Assembly (NCBI GenBank): GCA_030835305.1
Contig: JAURPJ010000052.1
Location: 1-43,910 of the forward strand
Source: Verrucomicrobiota bacterium
Lineage (GTDB): Bacteria; Verrucomicrobiota; Verrucomicrobiia; Verrucomicrobiales; Akkermansiaceae
Direction: 5' to 3'
DNA length: 43,910 nt
A program made the position numbers and the translations under genes. This document shows, in pieces, positions 5,389 through 33,764 of this stretch. Position 1 is the first letter of the stretch. Each line of letters opens with the position of its first letter. The notes under the pieces were generated by a model that was not told the DNA's origin, ran no database searches, and was given only the letters and a program-made list of their open reading frames with translations.

Positions 5389-5967
5389 CTAGGAACGCGA
5401 CTTCTTGGGAAGCTGGCGATATCCCATCATGTAGTATTCGTAACCAGACCAAATGGTGAAGATTGTTGCCAGGATTGTCGGGTAGATTAGGTCGATCTGA
5501 GTGAATTTCAGCATGATCCAGCCCATCGCAATCATCTGAGTGACGGTACAAACCTTTCCGGTCCAGTGGGGATCGATGGGGACTTTTTTGTTGATGCGGT
5601 AAAGAATCAGGATTCCTCCGATGATTTCGAGATCCCTGGCGATTACGAGAATGATGAACCAAATGGGTAGATGCCAATCGATTCCCCAGTTCACAAAGGT
5701 GGCAGTGACGAGGCCGGTCATGAGAAGGGCTTTGTCGGTGAGGGGGTCCAGAATGGCTCCGGTGAGCGACTTTTGGTTAAAGTGCCGGGCGATCCAGCCA
5801 TCAACTCCGTCAAGGACCGAGGCCAGAGTGTAAATTGCGACCGCGAGCCATCGCAGTGATTCGTCCGCCGATCCGGCGTCAACCGATCGTCCGTATCGCA
5901 CCGCAATCAAGGCAAAAACCGGAATGAGGGTGAGGCGAATCAGGGTAATGACGGTGGCGAGAGTCAC
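5389..5967 (-). CDS. pgsA: CDP-alcohol phosphatidyltransferase, probable phosphatidylglycerophosphate synthase
   Basis: A 192-residue inner-membrane enzyme expected to transfer the phosphatidyl group from CDP-diacylglycerol to glycerol-3-phosphate, the committed step to phosphatidylglycerol and cardiolipin. The full CDP-alcohol signature DG-x2-AR-x8-G-x3-D-x3-D is present (DGWIAR, then GAILDPLTD), with all metal-binding aspartates. Four to six hydrophobic segments surround it, and the N-terminus (NVITLIRL-like: TVITLIRLTLIP) matches PgsA. The start is GTG. It is divergent from rsmA; the two coding starts are only about 50 bases apart, so the promoters must share that gap. Other CDP-alcohol transferases are possible, but length and N-terminus favour PgsA. 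Confidence 0.88.
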   Translation of the reverse strand: MTLATVITLIRLTLIPVFALIAVRYGRSVDAGSADESLRWLAVAIYTLASVLDGVDGWIARHFNQKSLTGAILDPLTDKALLMTGLVTATFVNWGIDWHLPIWFIILVIARDLEIIGGILILYRINKKVPIDPHWTGKVCTVTQMIAMGWIMLKFTQIDLIYPTILATIFTIWSGYEYYMMGYRQLPKKSRS

Positions 5968-6019
5968 GGCTGGATCCCTTTTTAGTGGACATTCGGGGTT
6001 CCGGCAATTGAAAGGGAGC

Positions 6020-7378
6020 GTGACCGCAAGCGAACTGAAAGAGGTCCTCGATGAGGCCGGGGTGATTCCCTCGAAAAGATTGGGGCAAAATTTTCTCGTC
6101 GATCAAAATACCGCCGAGTGGATTGTGGGCCAGTTAAATCTCCAAGCGGAGGATACCATTGTTGAGGTGGGGCCCGGAACTGGAGCTCTCACGGAGCATG
6201 TTGTGGGCAAAGTGGCACGCGTCATTCTGGTGGAGTATGATCGTCGCCTTGCGGAGTATCTGACCAAAAAATTTGCAGACAGCCCCGAAGTGACGGTAAT
6301 CAATCACGATGCGGTCCGGATTGATATTCGTCCGTTTTTTGCCCACAAGAATATAAAGCTTCTGGGCAATCTTCCTTATTCCGCGGGAGGAGCGATTCTC
6401 CGAAATTTCCTAAAGGGGCCGTCTCCGTTCAAGCGGGCGGTGCTCATGCTGCAGAAGGAAATGATCGGCCGGATTTTGGCTGGCCCGCGTTGTAAGGATT
6501 ACGGAGTTCTGACTCTTCGCATGCAATGCGAGTGGCAGGGGGAACCCGTTAAGGTGGTTCCTCCTAGCAGTTTCATTCCGCGGCCCATGATCGACTCGAC
6601 CGTGATGACTTTGGAGCCCAGGCAGGCCGCGTTGCCGGTGCATGACCGGCGATTGTTTGATGAGTTGGTGCGACGAGGTTTTGCGCAGCGTCGCAAGCAG
6701 TTGCGCAAGAACCTGCCCGACAATGTCGACTGGGAGAAGGTTTGTGAGAAGCTGGAGTTTTCACCGACCGCGCGGGCCGAGGAATTGAGTCTCGATGATT
6801 GGGTTGCCTTAACCCGGGAGGTGGATCCGTTTTTCCATAAGGAAGAAGGGCAGGGCGACGGTGAAATGTTGGCGGTCGTTGACGGGGACGATCATGTCGT
6901 CGGTAGCGAACGGCGTGATGTCATTCACCGCGATGGTTTGAAGCACCGCGCGGTTCATATTTTTGCGCTTAATCAAAAGGGTGAGATCTTCCTTCAGAAG
7001 CGTTCTCGTTTGAAAGACAACTGTCCCGGGCTGTGGGATTCGAGCGCAGCCGGCCATGTCGATGCCGGCGAAGAATACGATGCTTGTGCCGCGCGTGAAT
7101 TGGAGGAGGAACTCGGTCTTGCGGGTCACGATTTGCGTGAGGTCGGCAAGCTGGGGGCGCACGCCAATACCGGATGGGAACATGTAAGACTCTATGCAAC
7201 TTTGGCAAAGGGGAGGATTCGCTTCCCGTGTGTGGAGATCGAGTATGGGGAATGGTTTGGGATGTCCCAGATCGAGGAATGGGTGAAGGCGGTGCCGGAG
7301 GATTTTGCGCCGGGTTTTCTGGCCTGTTGGGAAGTATGGAAGGAAGCGAATCCCGGGCGTTTTGAAAACGGTGAGTGA
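6020..7378 (+). CDS. rsmA: Fusion of 16S rRNA adenine dimethyltransferase RsmA (KsgA) with a C-terminal Nudix hydrolase domain
   Basis: From GTG 6020 the protein has 452 residues, against about 270 for normal RsmA. Residues 1-268 are a complete RsmA: RLGQNFLVD near the N-terminus, SAM motif EVGPGTG (49-55), catalytic NLPY (117-120), and a C-terminal helical domain with RRGFAQRRKQLRKNL. It dimethylates two adjacent adenines in the 3' loop of 16S rRNA. After a short acidic linker (KEEGQGDGE) comes a Nudix domain from about residue 280, with a perfect Nudix box (G-x5-E-x7-RE-L-x-EE-x-G-L, about 345-367) and an IDI/YfcD-like layout (LKHRAVHIF, FLQKRS, GLWD). The frame is open throughout. TTG 6008 is an alternative start; upstream ATGs would overlap pgsA. 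It overlaps the next gene by 8 bases. Confidence 0.9.
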   Translation: MTASELKEVLDEAGVIPSKRLGQNFLVDQNTAEWIVGQLNLQAEDTIVEVGPGTGALTEHVVGKVARVILVEYDRRLAEYLTKKFADSPEVTVINHDAVRIDIRPFFAHKNIKLLGNLPYSAGGAILRNFLKGPSPFKRAVLMLQKEMIGRILAGPRCKDYGVLTLRMQCEWQGEPVKVVPPSSFIPRPMIDSTVMTLEPRQAALPVHDRRLFDELVRRGFAQRRKQLRKNLPDNVDWEKVCEKLEFSPTARAEELSLDDWVALTREVDPFFHKEEGQGDGEMLAVVDGDDHVVGSERRDVIHRDGLKHRAVHIFALNQKGEIFLQKRSRLKDNCPGLWDSSAAGHVDAGEEYDACAARELEEELGLAGHDLREVGKLGAHANTGWEHVRLYATLAKGRIRFPCVEIEYGEWFGMSQIEEWVKAVPEDFAPGFLACWEVWKEANPGRFENGE

Positions 7379-8693
7379 GTTTGAAATCAAACCGGGCCGG
7401 AGCCTGGGGATTGTCGGGCGCAATGGATCCGGTAAGACGACTCTCGCCGCCAATCTGGCCGAAAAACACGGAGGATTTTTGGTTTCTTTCGAGCTCGAGA
7501 ACGAGCTTCTCGAGCGGGAGATTCGGGAGGACGACAGCGAATTTTTGGATCGGATCGATTTTGGTCGCTCGGTGCGCGAGCTGATCGAAGAGGTTTGCTC
7601 CGATGGCAGGAAGCTGGAGGAGGTTGCGGAGGCGTTGGGTTTATCCGAAATTTTTGAGCAAGGTTTTTTGACCTTGTCGACCGGTGAGCGGCGTCGGCTT
7701 ATGTTGGCGCGGGCCTTGGCTCAAAATTCGAAGCTTCTCGTGCTTGATGAGCCGTTTGATGGGCTGGATCAGGCGTTTCGGCAGCCTTTGCGGGAATTGT
7801 TGGACGGGTGTGATCTGATTTTGGTTACCAATCGTTTGAGTGATTTGGCGGGCCTGGCGGGCGATGTCTGCTGTGTCGAGGATGGACGGGTGATTCTGAG
7901 TGGGTCGCTCGAAGAGTTGGTCTGGAATGAGGCCTTTCAACAGTTGATGGGGCTTGGTGAAAGTGGATTGGTTTTACCCGATGGGGAATCGATTGCTCCG
8001 CCTCCGGGAGAGTTGGTTTCCATGGAGAAGGTCACCGTGGTGCATGGTGGACGAGAGATTATTTCAGAGTTCGATTGGACGGTTGAGAGCGGGCAGAATT
8101 GGAAGATCTCCGGGCCCAACGGTTGCGGGAAATCGACCCTTGTGAATCTGGTCACGGGCGATCATCCGCAGTGTTACTCCAACGACGTGACCGTAATGGG
8201 GATGCGCCGCGGGCTGGGCGAGTCGATTTGGGATATCAAACGCTATGTTGGAATTGTTTCGCCATCACTTCATCAACAGCATCGCGTGAGTTTTAATGCC
8301 CTGCAAATCGTGGCGTCAGGATTCTTCGATAGTGTTGGCATCTATCAGGATGTAGCGCCTGGGCATTGGGAAGTTGCAGGGATGTGGCTTGAATTGGTGG
8401 GGATGACTCCGTGGGCGGATCGACCGTTCCAATCTCTTAGCTATGGTCAGCAACGATTGCTCCTCGTTGCTAGGGCTTTGGTGAAACGTCCGCCGCTTCT
8501 GGTTCTTGATGAACCTTGTCAGGGTCTAGATCCAATCAATCGTGCCCTGGTTTTGGAGGTGATTGACCGGATTGCGTCGACGAAGCTTACCCAGATTCTT
8601 TATATCACCCATGAGCCGGAGGATCGGCTGGATTGTGTCACGCATGAGTTAAGGTATGAGGGAGAGGGCTGGTCGATTGAGAAGCTTGCTTGA
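7371..8693 (+). CDS. ATPase with two ABC domains, ModF/PhrA-like
   Basis: A 440-residue protein made of two ABC ATPase domains and no membrane segment. Domain 1 has GRNGSGKTT, LSTGERRRL and LLVLDEPFDGLD; domain 2 has GPNGCGKST, LSYGQQRLL and LLVLDEPCQGLD. This layout, with a short second-domain region containing NDVTVMG and a VSPSLHQQHR segment, is that of E. coli ModF (PhrA), a molybdate-locus ATPase of uncertain biochemical role. The GTG start at 7371 overlaps the rsmA-Nudix stop (GTGAGTGA), suggesting translational coupling; an in-frame ATG at 7305 would give a larger overlap. No molybdate transport genes are nearby, so function is inferred from architecture only. Confidence 0.85.
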   Translation: MSEFEIKPGRSLGIVGRNGSGKTTLAANLAEKHGGFLVSFELENELLEREIREDDSEFLDRIDFGRSVRELIEEVCSDGRKLEEVAEALGLSEIFEQGFLTLSTGERRRLMLARALAQNSKLLVLDEPFDGLDQAFRQPLRELLDGCDLILVTNRLSDLAGLAGDVCCVEDGRVILSGSLEELVWNEAFQQLMGLGESGLVLPDGESIAPPPGELVSMEKVTVVHGGREIISEFDWTVESGQNWKISGPNGCGKSTLVNLVTGDHPQCYSNDVTVMGMRRGLGESIWDIKRYVGIVSPSLHQQHRVSFNALQIVASGFFDSVGIYQDVAPGHWEVAGMWLELVGMTPWADRPFQSLSYGQQRLLLVARALVKRPPLLVLDEPCQGLDPINRALVLEVIDRIASTKLTQILYITHEPEDRLDCVTHELRYEGEGWSIEKLA

Positions 8694-8910
8694 CTCTCGT
8701 TGTGATCTGGTCAATGCCACGGGGCGTCATCGAATAGAGATCATTTGAGTAGGCGATCACAAGGCGGCCGGCGGCCTGGCCTTTCTCCGGGTAATGGTGT
8801 GTTCATGCCTCAGGCGTCTTTTTGATGGCAGAGGTCGGCGGGAAAGCGCTGCCGATGCTGGTTGATCGGGTTTTGTCTTGAGAAACCGCGCGGCCTGACA
8901 ACGATTTGAT
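8694..8910. other. Short intergenic spacer, nothing recognised
   Basis: A 217-base stretch between the ModF-like gene and the GHL10 hydrolase. I see no convincing open frame, RNA gene or strong hairpin. Because the two genes run in the same direction, a promoter for the hydrolase is expected here, but I could not pick out clear -35 and -10 boxes. Confidence 0.5.
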
Positions 8911-30481: not shown

Positions 30482-31171
30482 ATGGCCCGCGAAAAGAAAG
30501 ACGATTCTGCGAAGAAGACAAAAGGAGATGGCAAGGAGGTCGATCTCACAAAGGGATATGCCAAGACGAGGAAGAGTTTGATCGCCAGGTTGGAGAATTG
30601 GGATGATCAGCGGACCTGGGATGAATTTTACCAAACCTACTGGAAGCTGATTTATTCGGTGGGAATCAAGGCCGGACTGCGACACGACGAGGCCTTCGAT
30701 ACGGTGCAGGAGACGATCCTTTCGATCGCGAAGCAAAGTAAGAAGAATCTCTACGATCCGAAACAGGGGTCGTTCAAGACGTGGCTCATGAATATGACCC
30801 GCTGGCGGATCAATGATCAGTTTCGGAAACGCAAGAAGGACACCGCCATGCCGGGGGGAGGCTGGGAGGATGATCGCAAAACCGCGATTATCGATCGGTT
30901 TGAGGACCCCAAAGGAGATCTTTTGGAGCGGATGTGGGACGTCGAGTGGAAAAAAAACGTTGCCGACATGGCTCTGACCCGGGTGAAGGCCCAGGTTTCT
31001 CCGAAGCAGTATCAGATTTTCGATTATTACGTGGTGAAACAGTGGGAAGCCAAAAAGGTGCAGGATCACCTTGGGGTCAGTATGGCTCAGGTCTATCTAG
31101 CCAAGCATCGCGTAGGTTCCGTTCTGAAGAAGGAATTGGCGAAGCTCGAGAAAGATGCAAAAAAAGATTAG
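30482..31171 (+). CDS. ECF-type RNA polymerase sigma factor
   Basis: A 229-residue sigma-70-family factor of the extracytoplasmic-function kind. Region 2 is SLIARLENWDDQRTWDEFYQTYWKLIY through AFDTVQETILSIA and FKTWLMNMTRWRINDQFRKR. Region 4 is a C-terminal helix-turn-helix (KVQDHLGVSMAQVYLAKHRV). A Lys-rich N-terminal tail of 25 residues and a Lys-rich C-terminus are unusual. Its stop overlaps the kinase gene by 17 bases, which implies coupling. ECF factors paired with Ser/Thr kinases rather than membrane anti-sigma factors are known in several bacterial groups. Confidence 0.93.
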   Translation: MAREKKDDSAKKTKGDGKEVDLTKGYAKTRKSLIARLENWDDQRTWDEFYQTYWKLIYSVGIKAGLRHDEAFDTVQETILSIAKQSKKNLYDPKQGSFKTWLMNMTRWRINDQFRKRKKDTAMPGGGWEDDRKTAIIDRFEDPKGDLLERMWDVEWKKNVADMALTRVKAQVSPKQYQIFDYYVVKQWEAKKVQDHLGVSMAQVYLAKHRVGSVLKKELAKLEKDAKKD

Positions 31172-33764
31172 GCCAGACCCTTTGATCCCGGATCACGAAG
31201 TCCTCCGTAAAATCGGGGGAGGGGCCTATGGTGAAGTCTGGCTTGCTCGTGGAGTCACCGGTGCGATGAGAGCGGTGAAAATCGTCTATCGCGAGGACTT
31301 CTCCGATGAGCGGACTTTCGAGCGTGAGTTCGAGGGGATCTTGAGATTTGAGCCGATCTCGCGGGACCACCGGGGCTTCGTGAATATTCTTCACGTCGGA
31401 CGTAGTGATGATCACAGCGAATTTTATTATTACGTGATGGAGTTGGGTGATGACGCCCACAGTGATGATGAGATCAATCCGGTGGAATACGAGCCGCGGA
31501 CGCTGCGCACCGACATGATGCGGGCGAACGGGAAACCGCTGTCGACGAACTTCTGTATCGAAACCGGGAAGCGTCTCGCCGACGCCCTGGCAGCGTTACA
31601 TGAACGGGCTCTGACCCACCGCGATGTCAAACCGTCGAACGTCATCTTTGTCGATGGCAAGGCGAAGTTAGCAGACATCGGATTGGTTGCGGCCAAGGAC
31701 CAGCGGACTTTTGTGGGGACGGAGGGTTTTGTGCCTCCAGAGGGCCCGGGTTCGGAGCAGGCGGATATTTATAGCCTTGGGAAAGTTCTTTACGAGATGG
31801 CGACCGGGATGGATCGCTTGCAGTTTCCCGAGTTGCCGGATGAGACGCCGGCCGATGATTATCGCAAGAAATGGATCCGGCTGAATCGCATGATCTGCGA
31901 TATCTGCGATCCGCGAATGGCCAAGCGCAAGATTCAGACCGGACGCGACCTGGCTCATGCACTGAGTCACCTTCAGCGCGGCAAGAATGCTCCCAAGAAA
32001 GTGCCGGTCTACGCCAAGGTGGCTCTGGGTGTGCTCTTCGTAATTGGCTTGTTTACGAGTCAGATCTGGCTCGAAAAGACGTGGGGGACGCACGTGATTG
32101 AAGGACAGTTGGAGCCTCTGCCGGAACGATACGTGATGGTGAAGGTTCTCACAACTCCGGCAGGTGCCGAGGTTTTTAATAATGAAGGGAAGCGATTGGG
32201 CTACACGCCGGCAACTTTAACCGGGGTTGAAGTGGATTCGATCTTGGAGTTGCAGATCAAAGCGCCCAATCGCCGTGATCTGATTATCGATCAAAAAGTG
32301 GTCGACGAGGGGAATCAGGTCATGATTCTTGATAGGGTAATGTATCTCTTTTCACCACCCAAGTTTGAAGAAATATGGACTGATGCCCTGGGGAATGATT
32401 ACAAGCCCTATTTGGATCTGCACAAGGCGGTAGACCATGTTAGTGAGGCGGATTGGGAACTTTATTTGAAGGAGACGAACCAAAAGCAAAAACTCAGGGC
32501 ACTCCCCTTCGACTACAGTGGTCGCAAGGTCGTTGCGGTCCCCGAGGCGTGGGCAGTGGGCTACGCAAAGTGGCTGGAGGAGAAATGCATTGATCAGGGA
32601 TATTTTGACGAGTATTCGGACGAAAATCCGGAGAGGAATCGTCAGATCATTCCACACTATGATCTGTCTTTTGATGCCACAAGACTTCCTGCAGAAGCAA
32701 AGAAGGGGGGCAAGCTCCTGCGACCCTTCTATTGTTGGGTCAGACCAATCCCTTATGGCTCGTTGACAATCGATTCGGACCCCAGTGGAGCGAGCCTCTA
32801 CTTGAATAAGGTTTTGGTTGGGGTCACGCCCTTTAATGGTCCCAATATTGCTCCGGGTGACATTGAGATCACTCTTGCGATGGGTGGCAAAAAGACGAGG
32901 ATCGACAATGTCTATCTCCCGGACAGGGGCGAGTTTAGCAAGGTCTATAATTTGGTTCCTGACGAGAGTTTTGAGCCCGGGAAAGCCTGGACGAATAGCA
33001 TTGAGATGGAGTTGGTGGCGATGCCCGATGATGAGCTGAGTGTTTCAAAGTGGGAGACTCGCACCGTTGACTATCGCCGCTATCTCAAGGCGACCAGAAA
33101 AAAGGTCGGGGATGAGGTTTTGAGCGAGGATCCCCTGGTCCCTGTCGTGGGTCTGACCCGCGCGGAGTGCGAAGCGTTTTGCGAATGGTTGACCAGGAGC
33201 GAGCGGGATAACCCCAACGCAGATCTCAACCGTATTACGAAGGACTACCGGTACCGCTTACCGACCGATTCGGAATGGAGCAGGATGGCGGGCTTGATTG
33301 AAGTTGGTGAAACACCGGCCGAGCGGGAGTCTGACGTCGTCAATGCAGGGCGGTTTCCCTGGGGGCAGACTTTCCCTCCGGATCTACTGGTCGGGAACTA
33401 TGCCGATCTCTCGGCGATTGTGTTTATCGACAGTGACCGAATCATCGCGGACTACAATGATGGTTTTAAAAAGCTGGCTCCGGTGGGGCAATTCGAATCA
33501 AACTCTCGGGGCTTGTACGATATTGGAGGGAATGTGCACGAATGGGTCTCTGATTCTTATGGGAATGCCAGCCGGGGAATCTTGCGCGGCGGAGGTTGGG
33601 ATACTTTTAGTGAGGAGCATCTGGAAACACGATTCCGCTTTCCTATTGATGTGGAGCACCGGAGTGATAGCTTCGGGTTTCGGGTTGTTTTGGCCCGGGA
33701 TGTCGAACAGGAAATCACTGAAGAAAACGTAGAGAACGAAGAAAATGGTGGAGATCCAAATTGA
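31155..33764 (+). CDS. Ser/Thr protein kinase with PEGA and formylglycine-generating-enzyme-type domains
   Basis: An 869-residue transmembrane protein. Residues about 13-275 form a Hanks-type kinase: Gly loop GGGAYGEVW (21-29), Lys42, HRDVKPSN (155-162) and DIG (174-176) in place of DFG. A transmembrane helix lies at about 286-304. Outside are two PEGA-like repeats (near 326-395 and 535-600, each with a TTPAGAEVF or SDPSGASLYLN motif). The C-terminal 260 residues are an FGE/SUMF1-type fold (YRLPTDSEWSRMAG, FPWGQTF, GLYDIGGNVHEWVSD, GILRGGGWDT, FGFRVVLARD). It overlaps the sigma factor upstream and the OsmC gene downstream. The likely role is sensing outside and phosphorylating the sigma factor or its partner. 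Confidence 0.92.
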   Translation: MQKKIRPDPLIPDHEVLRKIGGGAYGEVWLARGVTGAMRAVKIVYREDFSDERTFEREFEGILRFEPISRDHRGFVNILHVGRSDDHSEFYYYVMELGDDAHSDDEINPVEYEPRTLRTDMMRANGKPLSTNFCIETGKRLADALAALHERALTHRDVKPSNVIFVDGKAKLADIGLVAAKDQRTFVGTEGFVPPEGPGSEQADIYSLGKVLYEMATGMDRLQFPELPDETPADDYRKKWIRLNRMICDICDPRMAKRKIQTGRDLAHALSHLQRGKNAPKKVPVYAKVALGVLFVIGLFTSQIWLEKTWGTHVIEGQLEPLPERYVMVKVLTTPAGAEVFNNEGKRLGYTPATLTGVEVDSILELQIKAPNRRDLIIDQKVVDEGNQVMILDRVMYLFSPPKFEEIWTDALGNDYKPYLDLHKAVDHVSEADWELYLKETNQKQKLRALPFDYSGRKVVAVPEAWAVGYAKWLEEKCIDQGYFDEYSDENPERNRQIIPHYDLSFDATRLPAEAKKGGKLLRPFYCWVRPIPYGSLTIDSDPSGASLYLNKVLVGVTPFNGPNIAPGDIEITLAMGGKKTRIDNVYLPDRGEFSKVYNLVPDESFEPGKAWTNSIEMELVAMPDDELSVSKWETRTVDYRRYLKATRKKVGDEVLSEDPLVPVVGLTRAECEAFCEWLTRSERDNPNADLNRITKDYRYRLPTDSEWSRMAGLIEVGETPAERESDVVNAGRFPWGQTFPPDLLVGNYADLSAIVFIDSDRIIADYNDGFKKLAPVGQFESNSRGLYDIGGNVHEWVSDSYGNASRGILRGGGWDTFSEEHLETRFRFPIDVEHRSDSFGFRVVLARDVEQEITEENVENEENGGDPN

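Follow-up and report, generated by a model that had tools for sequence, protein, structure and literature searches.

The fused rsmA-nudix gene and its surroundings

The window analysed here, a stretch of 43,910 nucleotides from an Akkermansiaceae genome, carries on its forward strand a stop-free frame (5924-7378) that spans both an RsmA (KsgA) domain and a Nudix domain. The GTG codon at 6020 was taken as the start of this gene, called rsmA-nudix hereafter, because its close relatives L113, L114 and L116 begin alike (N-termini VTASEL, VTATEL and VTATEL). With this homologue-backed start, a product of 452 residues is obtained and the frame closes on a TGA stop (Table 1). We take NLPY to be the catalytic motif of the RsmA family, and the roles of the SAM-site residues are assumed likewise. 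The Nudix box pattern is written in the style of the excerpt of PMC5389931.

Table 1. Features of the rsmA-nudix locus (positions in the window).
Feature	Position	Strand	Remarks
Fused gene rsmA-nudix	6020..7378	+	452 residues, GTG start, TGA stop
RsmA (KsgA) domain, residues 17-267	6068..6820	+	TIGR00755 and KsgA 6ift fold
Motif NLPY, residues 117-120	6368..6379	+	kept in 84/84 fused proteins
Linker, approximately residues 268-280	6821..6859	+	low pLDDT block 271-280
YfcD-type Nudix domain, residues 280-444	6857..7351	+	PF00293 and 2fkb fold
Nudix box GX5EX7REUXEEXGU, intact, residues 345-367	7052..7120	+	conservation in 84 fused proteins
Two-ATPase ABC gene, outside the fusion	7371..8693	+	ORF 7305-8693, in-frame GTG at 7371

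We infer that the ABC gene starts at its in-frame GTG, so that its first 8 bases would still lie within the 3' end of the fused gene; co-translation of the two is therefore probable. Elsewhere in the window (30482-33764, forward strand), a sigma-factor-like frame is followed by an overlapping long frame that, read by eye as the former was, combines protein kinase-like, PEGA-like and formylglycine-enzyme-like parts.

Family assignment and comparison with known proteins

RsmA, which adds two methyl groups to each of two adenines (A1518/A1519) close to the 16S rRNA 3' end, is nearly universal and usually consists of a lone domain. In the fused protein, the Pfam family RrnaAD is matched at residues 19-266 with 182.9 bits (cut-off 24) and the NUDIX family PF00293 at residues 308-418 with 65.6 bits (cut-off 21.1). 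The NCBIfam equivalog model of RsmA, TIGR00755, is passed with 229.6 bits against a cut-off of 171, and NLPY and the SAM-site residues are present. The broad model of the Erm 23S rRNA methyltransferases (NF000499) gave 159.6 bits, below its cut-off of 212, and this assignment was rejected. In the source genome, the fused protein is the sole RsmA above the family cut-off and one of four Nudix matches above the Pfam cut-off. The family models thus agree with the reading of the first-pass annotation: a complete RsmA and, in the same open frame, a complete Nudix domain whose box is intact.

The fused protein was modelled with AlphaFold2 from an alignment of 32 sequences (mean pLDDT 92.2, pTM 0.89). 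The weak regions of the model are only the linker (block 271-280, mean pLDDT 58) and the C-terminal end. Among solved structures, the RsmA half is matched to KsgA 6ift (Z 31.3, rmsd 2.4, 273 residues aligned). The fused protein is therefore alike to RsmA/KsgA in equivalog score, motifs and fold, but differs from it in having an additional enzyme domain of some 170 residues; the matched KsgA chains count 215-298 residues, versus 452 for the fused protein. KsgA matches filled the fold search with the full model, and the Nudix half was also modelled and searched alone.

The nearest match of the Nudix half, both in sequence and in fold, is E. coli YfcD (profile search, E 3.2e-26; structure 2fkb, Z 24.0, rmsd 1.6, about 160 residues aligned over model residues 280-444). 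E. coli yfcD is, however, a free-standing gene located away from rsmA, and the YfcD equivalog model NF011922 is not reached by the fused half (80.8 and 83.3 bits versus a cut-off of 152). In the excerpt of PMC5389931, the function of 2FKB is given as undetermined. DR_0079 of Deinococcus radiodurans (2o5f, 1q27), a free-standing chain unlike the fused half, comes second in sequence (E 2.1e-21) and in fold (2o5f, Z 22.0); it prefers cytosine di- and triphosphates according to the title of a reference in the same excerpt. Layout and fold are also shared with isopentenyl-diphosphate isomerase type 1, the E. coli enzyme (1hx3) coming next with Z 21.1, other chains of this family descending to about 17 and MutT-like chains from 15.7. 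The IDI/YfcD-like layout noted from the sequence is consistent with this ranking.

An isomerase identity of the Nudix half was nevertheless rejected. The type 1 model TIGR02150 is not reached (54.5 and 57.7 bits versus a cut-off of 105.8). Moreover, the position of the cysteine of the SVCGH stretch, presumably the catalytic cysteine of this isomerase, was located by alignment to E. coli Idi and is occupied in the fused proteins by alanine (77/84) or serine (7/84).

A loose parallel is offered by the E. coli rsmA-apaG-apaH genes, where the RsmA gene likewise lies beside a gene for an enzyme cleaving phosphate bonds in nucleotides. ApaH, a diadenosine tetraphosphatase, nevertheless belongs to a family unrelated to the Nudix half and is unfused. 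Among 113 genomes of the class, none had an ApaH match above cut-off and 28 had a weaker one; but just 1 of 14 controls was above it too, which makes this absence a poor sign that the Nudix half stands in for ApaH. In the open-access literature searched, no description of an RsmA-Nudix fusion was found.

Conservation of the two active sites

Active-site conservation was studied in an alignment of 84 fused proteins without stops. All 15 RsmA positions examined are invariant. On the Nudix side, R359, E360, E363, E364, E387 and E406 are found in 84/84 proteins, G366 in 82/84 and E351 in 79/84. Among 18 domain comparisons, dN/dS could be computed in 15 and lies between 0.015 and 0.185 for both domains, the synonymous distance being saturated in the other 3 and very large in 1 of these 15. 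Purifying selection on both domains also holds in the pair G036/G057, two fused, single-contig genomes of 0.9 Mb. With active sites kept and dN/dS low, both halves therefore appear to be in use.

Distribution of the fusion

A sample of 387 Verrucomicrobiota genomes was searched for a single match spanning both halves, which was found in at least 55 of them. All 45 genomes of the order of the window are fused (39/39 of the family, the source genome included, and 6/6 others), several of them as single-contig assemblies. The first-pass annotation had named a missed stop or a frameshift between the domains as the finding that would undo the fusion; since the same unbroken frame occurs in 45/45 genomes of the order, such an artefact was rejected for the clade of the window. 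In one case (G243) a stop lies inside the matched span, yet a frame of 448 residues that holds both halves is open. In the rest of the class, the fusion was found in at least 10 of 81 genomes.

Outside the class, no match to both halves was found in 261 genomes of other classes, among the matches listed; 63 of these genomes were inspected place by place, and the rsmA and Nudix matches were adjacent in none. For Acidobacteriota, the phylum of locus L141, no match among those listed for 199 genomes extends past query residue 287. In a plasmid collection, none of 1725 matching records reaches 80% of the query.

A locus scan retained 80 of 581 confirmed stretches, of which 15 (L113-L127) read through both halves without a stop; among the taxa named in their records are Akkermansia muciniphila, Akkermansiaceae, Verrucomicrobiaceae, Chthoniobacterales and Terrimicrobiaceae. 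At locus L128, from a Terrimicrobiaceae bin, an RsmA resembling that of the main fused clade ends without a Nudix half near 8800, and the G+C content falls sharply from about 0.55 to about 0.26 where RsmA ends. This break has the look of a contig chimera or of an inserted segment, and may also be a real loss of the Nudix half.

The Nudix half in unfused relatives

When the Nudix half alone was used as the query, a match was found in 221 of 236 genomes of the class. In the order of the window there is a single such match per genome, always the fused one (42/42 genomes). Many unfused genomes of the class have, among the matches listed, a standalone Nudix frame of about 170-220 residues. Judging from sequence, the C-terminal half of the fused protein is the resident member of a YfcD-type Nudix family found class-wide, whose members in relatives are separate proteins. 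A second Nudix match occurs in 3 of 5 genomes of the fused group f81, and is weak at least in G400. Four near-complete genomes of the class (G116, G158, G175 and G207) have an RsmA match and no match to the Nudix half.

The arrangement of the two genes was followed in 128 genomes of the class re-searched with the whole protein, in two sets of 64, the first of which had been chosen as unfused; the tallies are our reading of the match tables. The genes are adjacent, on one strand and within about 600 bases, in 29 genomes (13/64 and 16/64), and fused in 16, all in the second set. No match at all was obtained in 4 genomes, also of the second set, and in the remainder the genes are apart or incomplete. 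In two of the adjacent pairs, those of G388 and G496, both genes lie in a shared frame, with no more than a stop codon and a short run of codons between them.

Junctions and linkers

In 8 of the 32 adjacent rows of the trees (L154, L193, L198, L199, L241, L243, L251 and L252), the ATG of the Nudix gene overlaps the rsmA stop within an ATGA. The other adjacent rows show short gaps or other overlaps, the gap reaching about 2.5 kb in L250. An origin of the fusion by merger of neighbouring genes, already considered in the first-pass annotation, is supported because adjacent, ATGA-overlapping and fused forms all occur in the class.

The linker of the main fused clade has a median length of 14 residues (10-21, n=76 proteins). 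It is shorter in f81 (L233, which is G387, and L234-L237), where 5/5 sampled genomes are fused with linkers of 5-14 residues (5 proteins), and it measures 12 residues in G461. In G516 (L238), the linker counts 5 residues, and both the stop and the former start codon are gone from the junction. In G446 (L239), it counts 17 residues and an in-frame ATG still stands at the junction.

Number of fusion events

Fused homologues, which the first-pass annotation had proposed to seek across Verrucomicrobiota and to map on a tree, were placed in an RsmA tree (126 rows, among them L257 with 148 residues only), a Nudix tree (102 rows, L219 being left out) and a joint tree of both domains (91 rows). They gave one large clade and a further fusion or fusions. 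All trees are quick, unbootstrapped searches on hand-picked rows, and L128 is in none of them. The Nudix tree could not be rooted with E. coli YfcD and Idi, whose branches were too long for outgroups.

A main fused clade is recovered with SH-aLRT 98 in both the RsmA tree (42 rows) and the joint tree (43 rows). The Nudix tree has a large fused group too, but the standalone L111 lies inside it on a very long branch. As far as these trees tell, the main fused clade is one, large and old. The changes needed between the fused and unfused states number 5 for RsmA, 5 for Nudix and 4 for the joint tree, 4 being forced by starred branches in each case. A single fusion for all 50 fused tree rows was rejected (AU p 9.5e-06).

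In the Nudix and joint trees, G516 clusters with L252 and L241, both of them ATGA pairs; in the joint tree, G446 clusters with L243, an ATGA pair, and with L257, an adjacent one. A clade uniting the main group and G446 is rejected more weakly (p 0.011), for a hypothesis that was picked after viewing the tree; in the genus of G446, G468 has no match and G506 has RsmA alone. For G516 as for G446, the fusion is known from a single draft genome. A clade uniting the main group and f81 is not rejected (AU p 0.271 for RsmA and 0.405 for both domains), and the RsmA tree excludes G461 (f109) from the main clade, whereas the Nudix and joint trees place it within or next to that clade. Given the data, two fusions are firm, that of the main clade and that of G516, and a further separate one in G446 is likely.

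Gene neighbourhood

In 66 loci, with gene identities judged by eye, no neighbour gene was found to be common to the main clade and none points to ribosomes; the neighbourhoods gave no clue to function. Clusters of queE-like and of aminotransferase genes, identified by eye, occur in 20 and 22 of the 66 loci. At the Pedosphaera-type loci L154, L193 and L252, queE-like radical-SAM and class-III-like aminotransferase genes stand just upstream of the pair. In L236 (f81), the upstream frame resembles, by eye, that of N-acetylglutamate synthase.

Possible origin and role of the fused protein

It can be proposed that rsmA-nudix encodes a bifunctional housekeeping protein, the N-terminal half being the cell's RsmA and the C-terminal half its YfcD-type Nudix hydrolase. 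The proposal builds on the single frame, the orthology of both halves, the intermediate arrangements in relatives, the conserved active sites and the purifying selection. The ancestral genes would have lain side by side, the stop of one overlapping the start of the other, which makes translational coupling probable; once stop and start had been lost in frame, the two would have become one gene. One such event would fall in the common ancestor of the window's order and the Chthoniobacterales lineages, and one or more others elsewhere. Both halves, held by a short and loose linker, would be active. The Nudix half would cleave a soluble nucleotide or diphosphate, and the chief effect of the fusion would be an equal dosage of both enzymes. 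Taken as a whole, we consider this proposal about evenly balanced between right and wrong. As to why the fusion was kept, we infer joint dosage as the most likely motive.

A selectively neutral merger accounts for the data nearly as well as dosage. The overlap would simply have eased the fusion with no selection either way, leaving two independent halves and no benefit. An ATGA overlap is indeed one small indel away from a fusion, linker lengths vary between the fused groups (14 residues in the main clade, 5 in G516, 17 in G446, 5-14 in f81), and the two genes are unlinked in other classes (0/63 adjacent). However, the fusion arose more than once, and no clear reversal is seen in the large clade, where 42/42 rows are fused and L128 is a doubtful exception. 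On balance, we hold a purely neutral origin to be possible but rather unlikely.

The repeated joining of the same pair can also be read as a link to ribosome maturation. On the 30S subunit under maturation, a Nudix domain delivered by RsmA would strip off a 5' cap from RNA, a bound nucleotide or a signal; it could also act as a nucleotide sensor that gates RsmA. The first-pass annotation had suggested a cleaning of damaged or modified nucleotides, for or against which the data do not speak. The confident joint model is in keeping with a role at the ribosome; its pTM of 0.89 could reflect a fixed arrangement of both domains and hence more than dosage. The E. coli neighbourhood of rsmA with apaG and apaH is a suggestive, if unrelated, parallel. 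It should, however, be noted that the pair is unlinked outside the class, with none of the 63 inspected genomes having the genes adjacent, that no Nudix match accompanies RsmA in some genomes of the class, and that the main clade has no common neighbour gene pointing to ribosomes. This role at the ribosome is, to our judgement, doubtful. Equally tentative is its corollary, in which a Nudix domain on the 30S subunit would couple the assembly of ribosomes to the cell's nucleotide status and the repeated joining would have been selected.

Alternatively, the Nudix part may be made as a protein of its own, through an internal start or by proteolysis, in addition to the fusion or in its place. At least one of the codons ATG, GTG and TTG stands in frame near the junction in 57 of 76 main-clade genes, an in-frame start codon is accompanied there by a Shine-Dalgarno-like 4-mer in 13 of the 76, and the junction of G446 retains its ATG. 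Yet the combination of start and 4-mer is lacking in the other 63, among which, by list order (12 of the 13 being listed), is the gene of the window, and the old start is gone in G516. The production of two proteins is accordingly judged very improbable. That the fusion is an artefact of an overlooked stop or an erroneous indel between neighbouring genes has a negligible probability in view of the unbroken frame throughout the order (45/45), even though overlapping genes do occur in relatives and the G516 and G446 fusions come from one draft genome each.

Returning to the proposed bifunctional protein, a large bacterial group that includes the much-studied gut organism Akkermansia makes its RsmA as one half of a two-enzyme protein. 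Within one class, separate, adjacent, overlapping and fused stages are found, which makes a clear case of operon genes becoming fusion proteins. Annotating the whole protein as RsmA would hide the second enzyme. The fixed partner, together with the conservation of both active sites, also provides a lead to the role of the YfcD-type Nudix enzymes.
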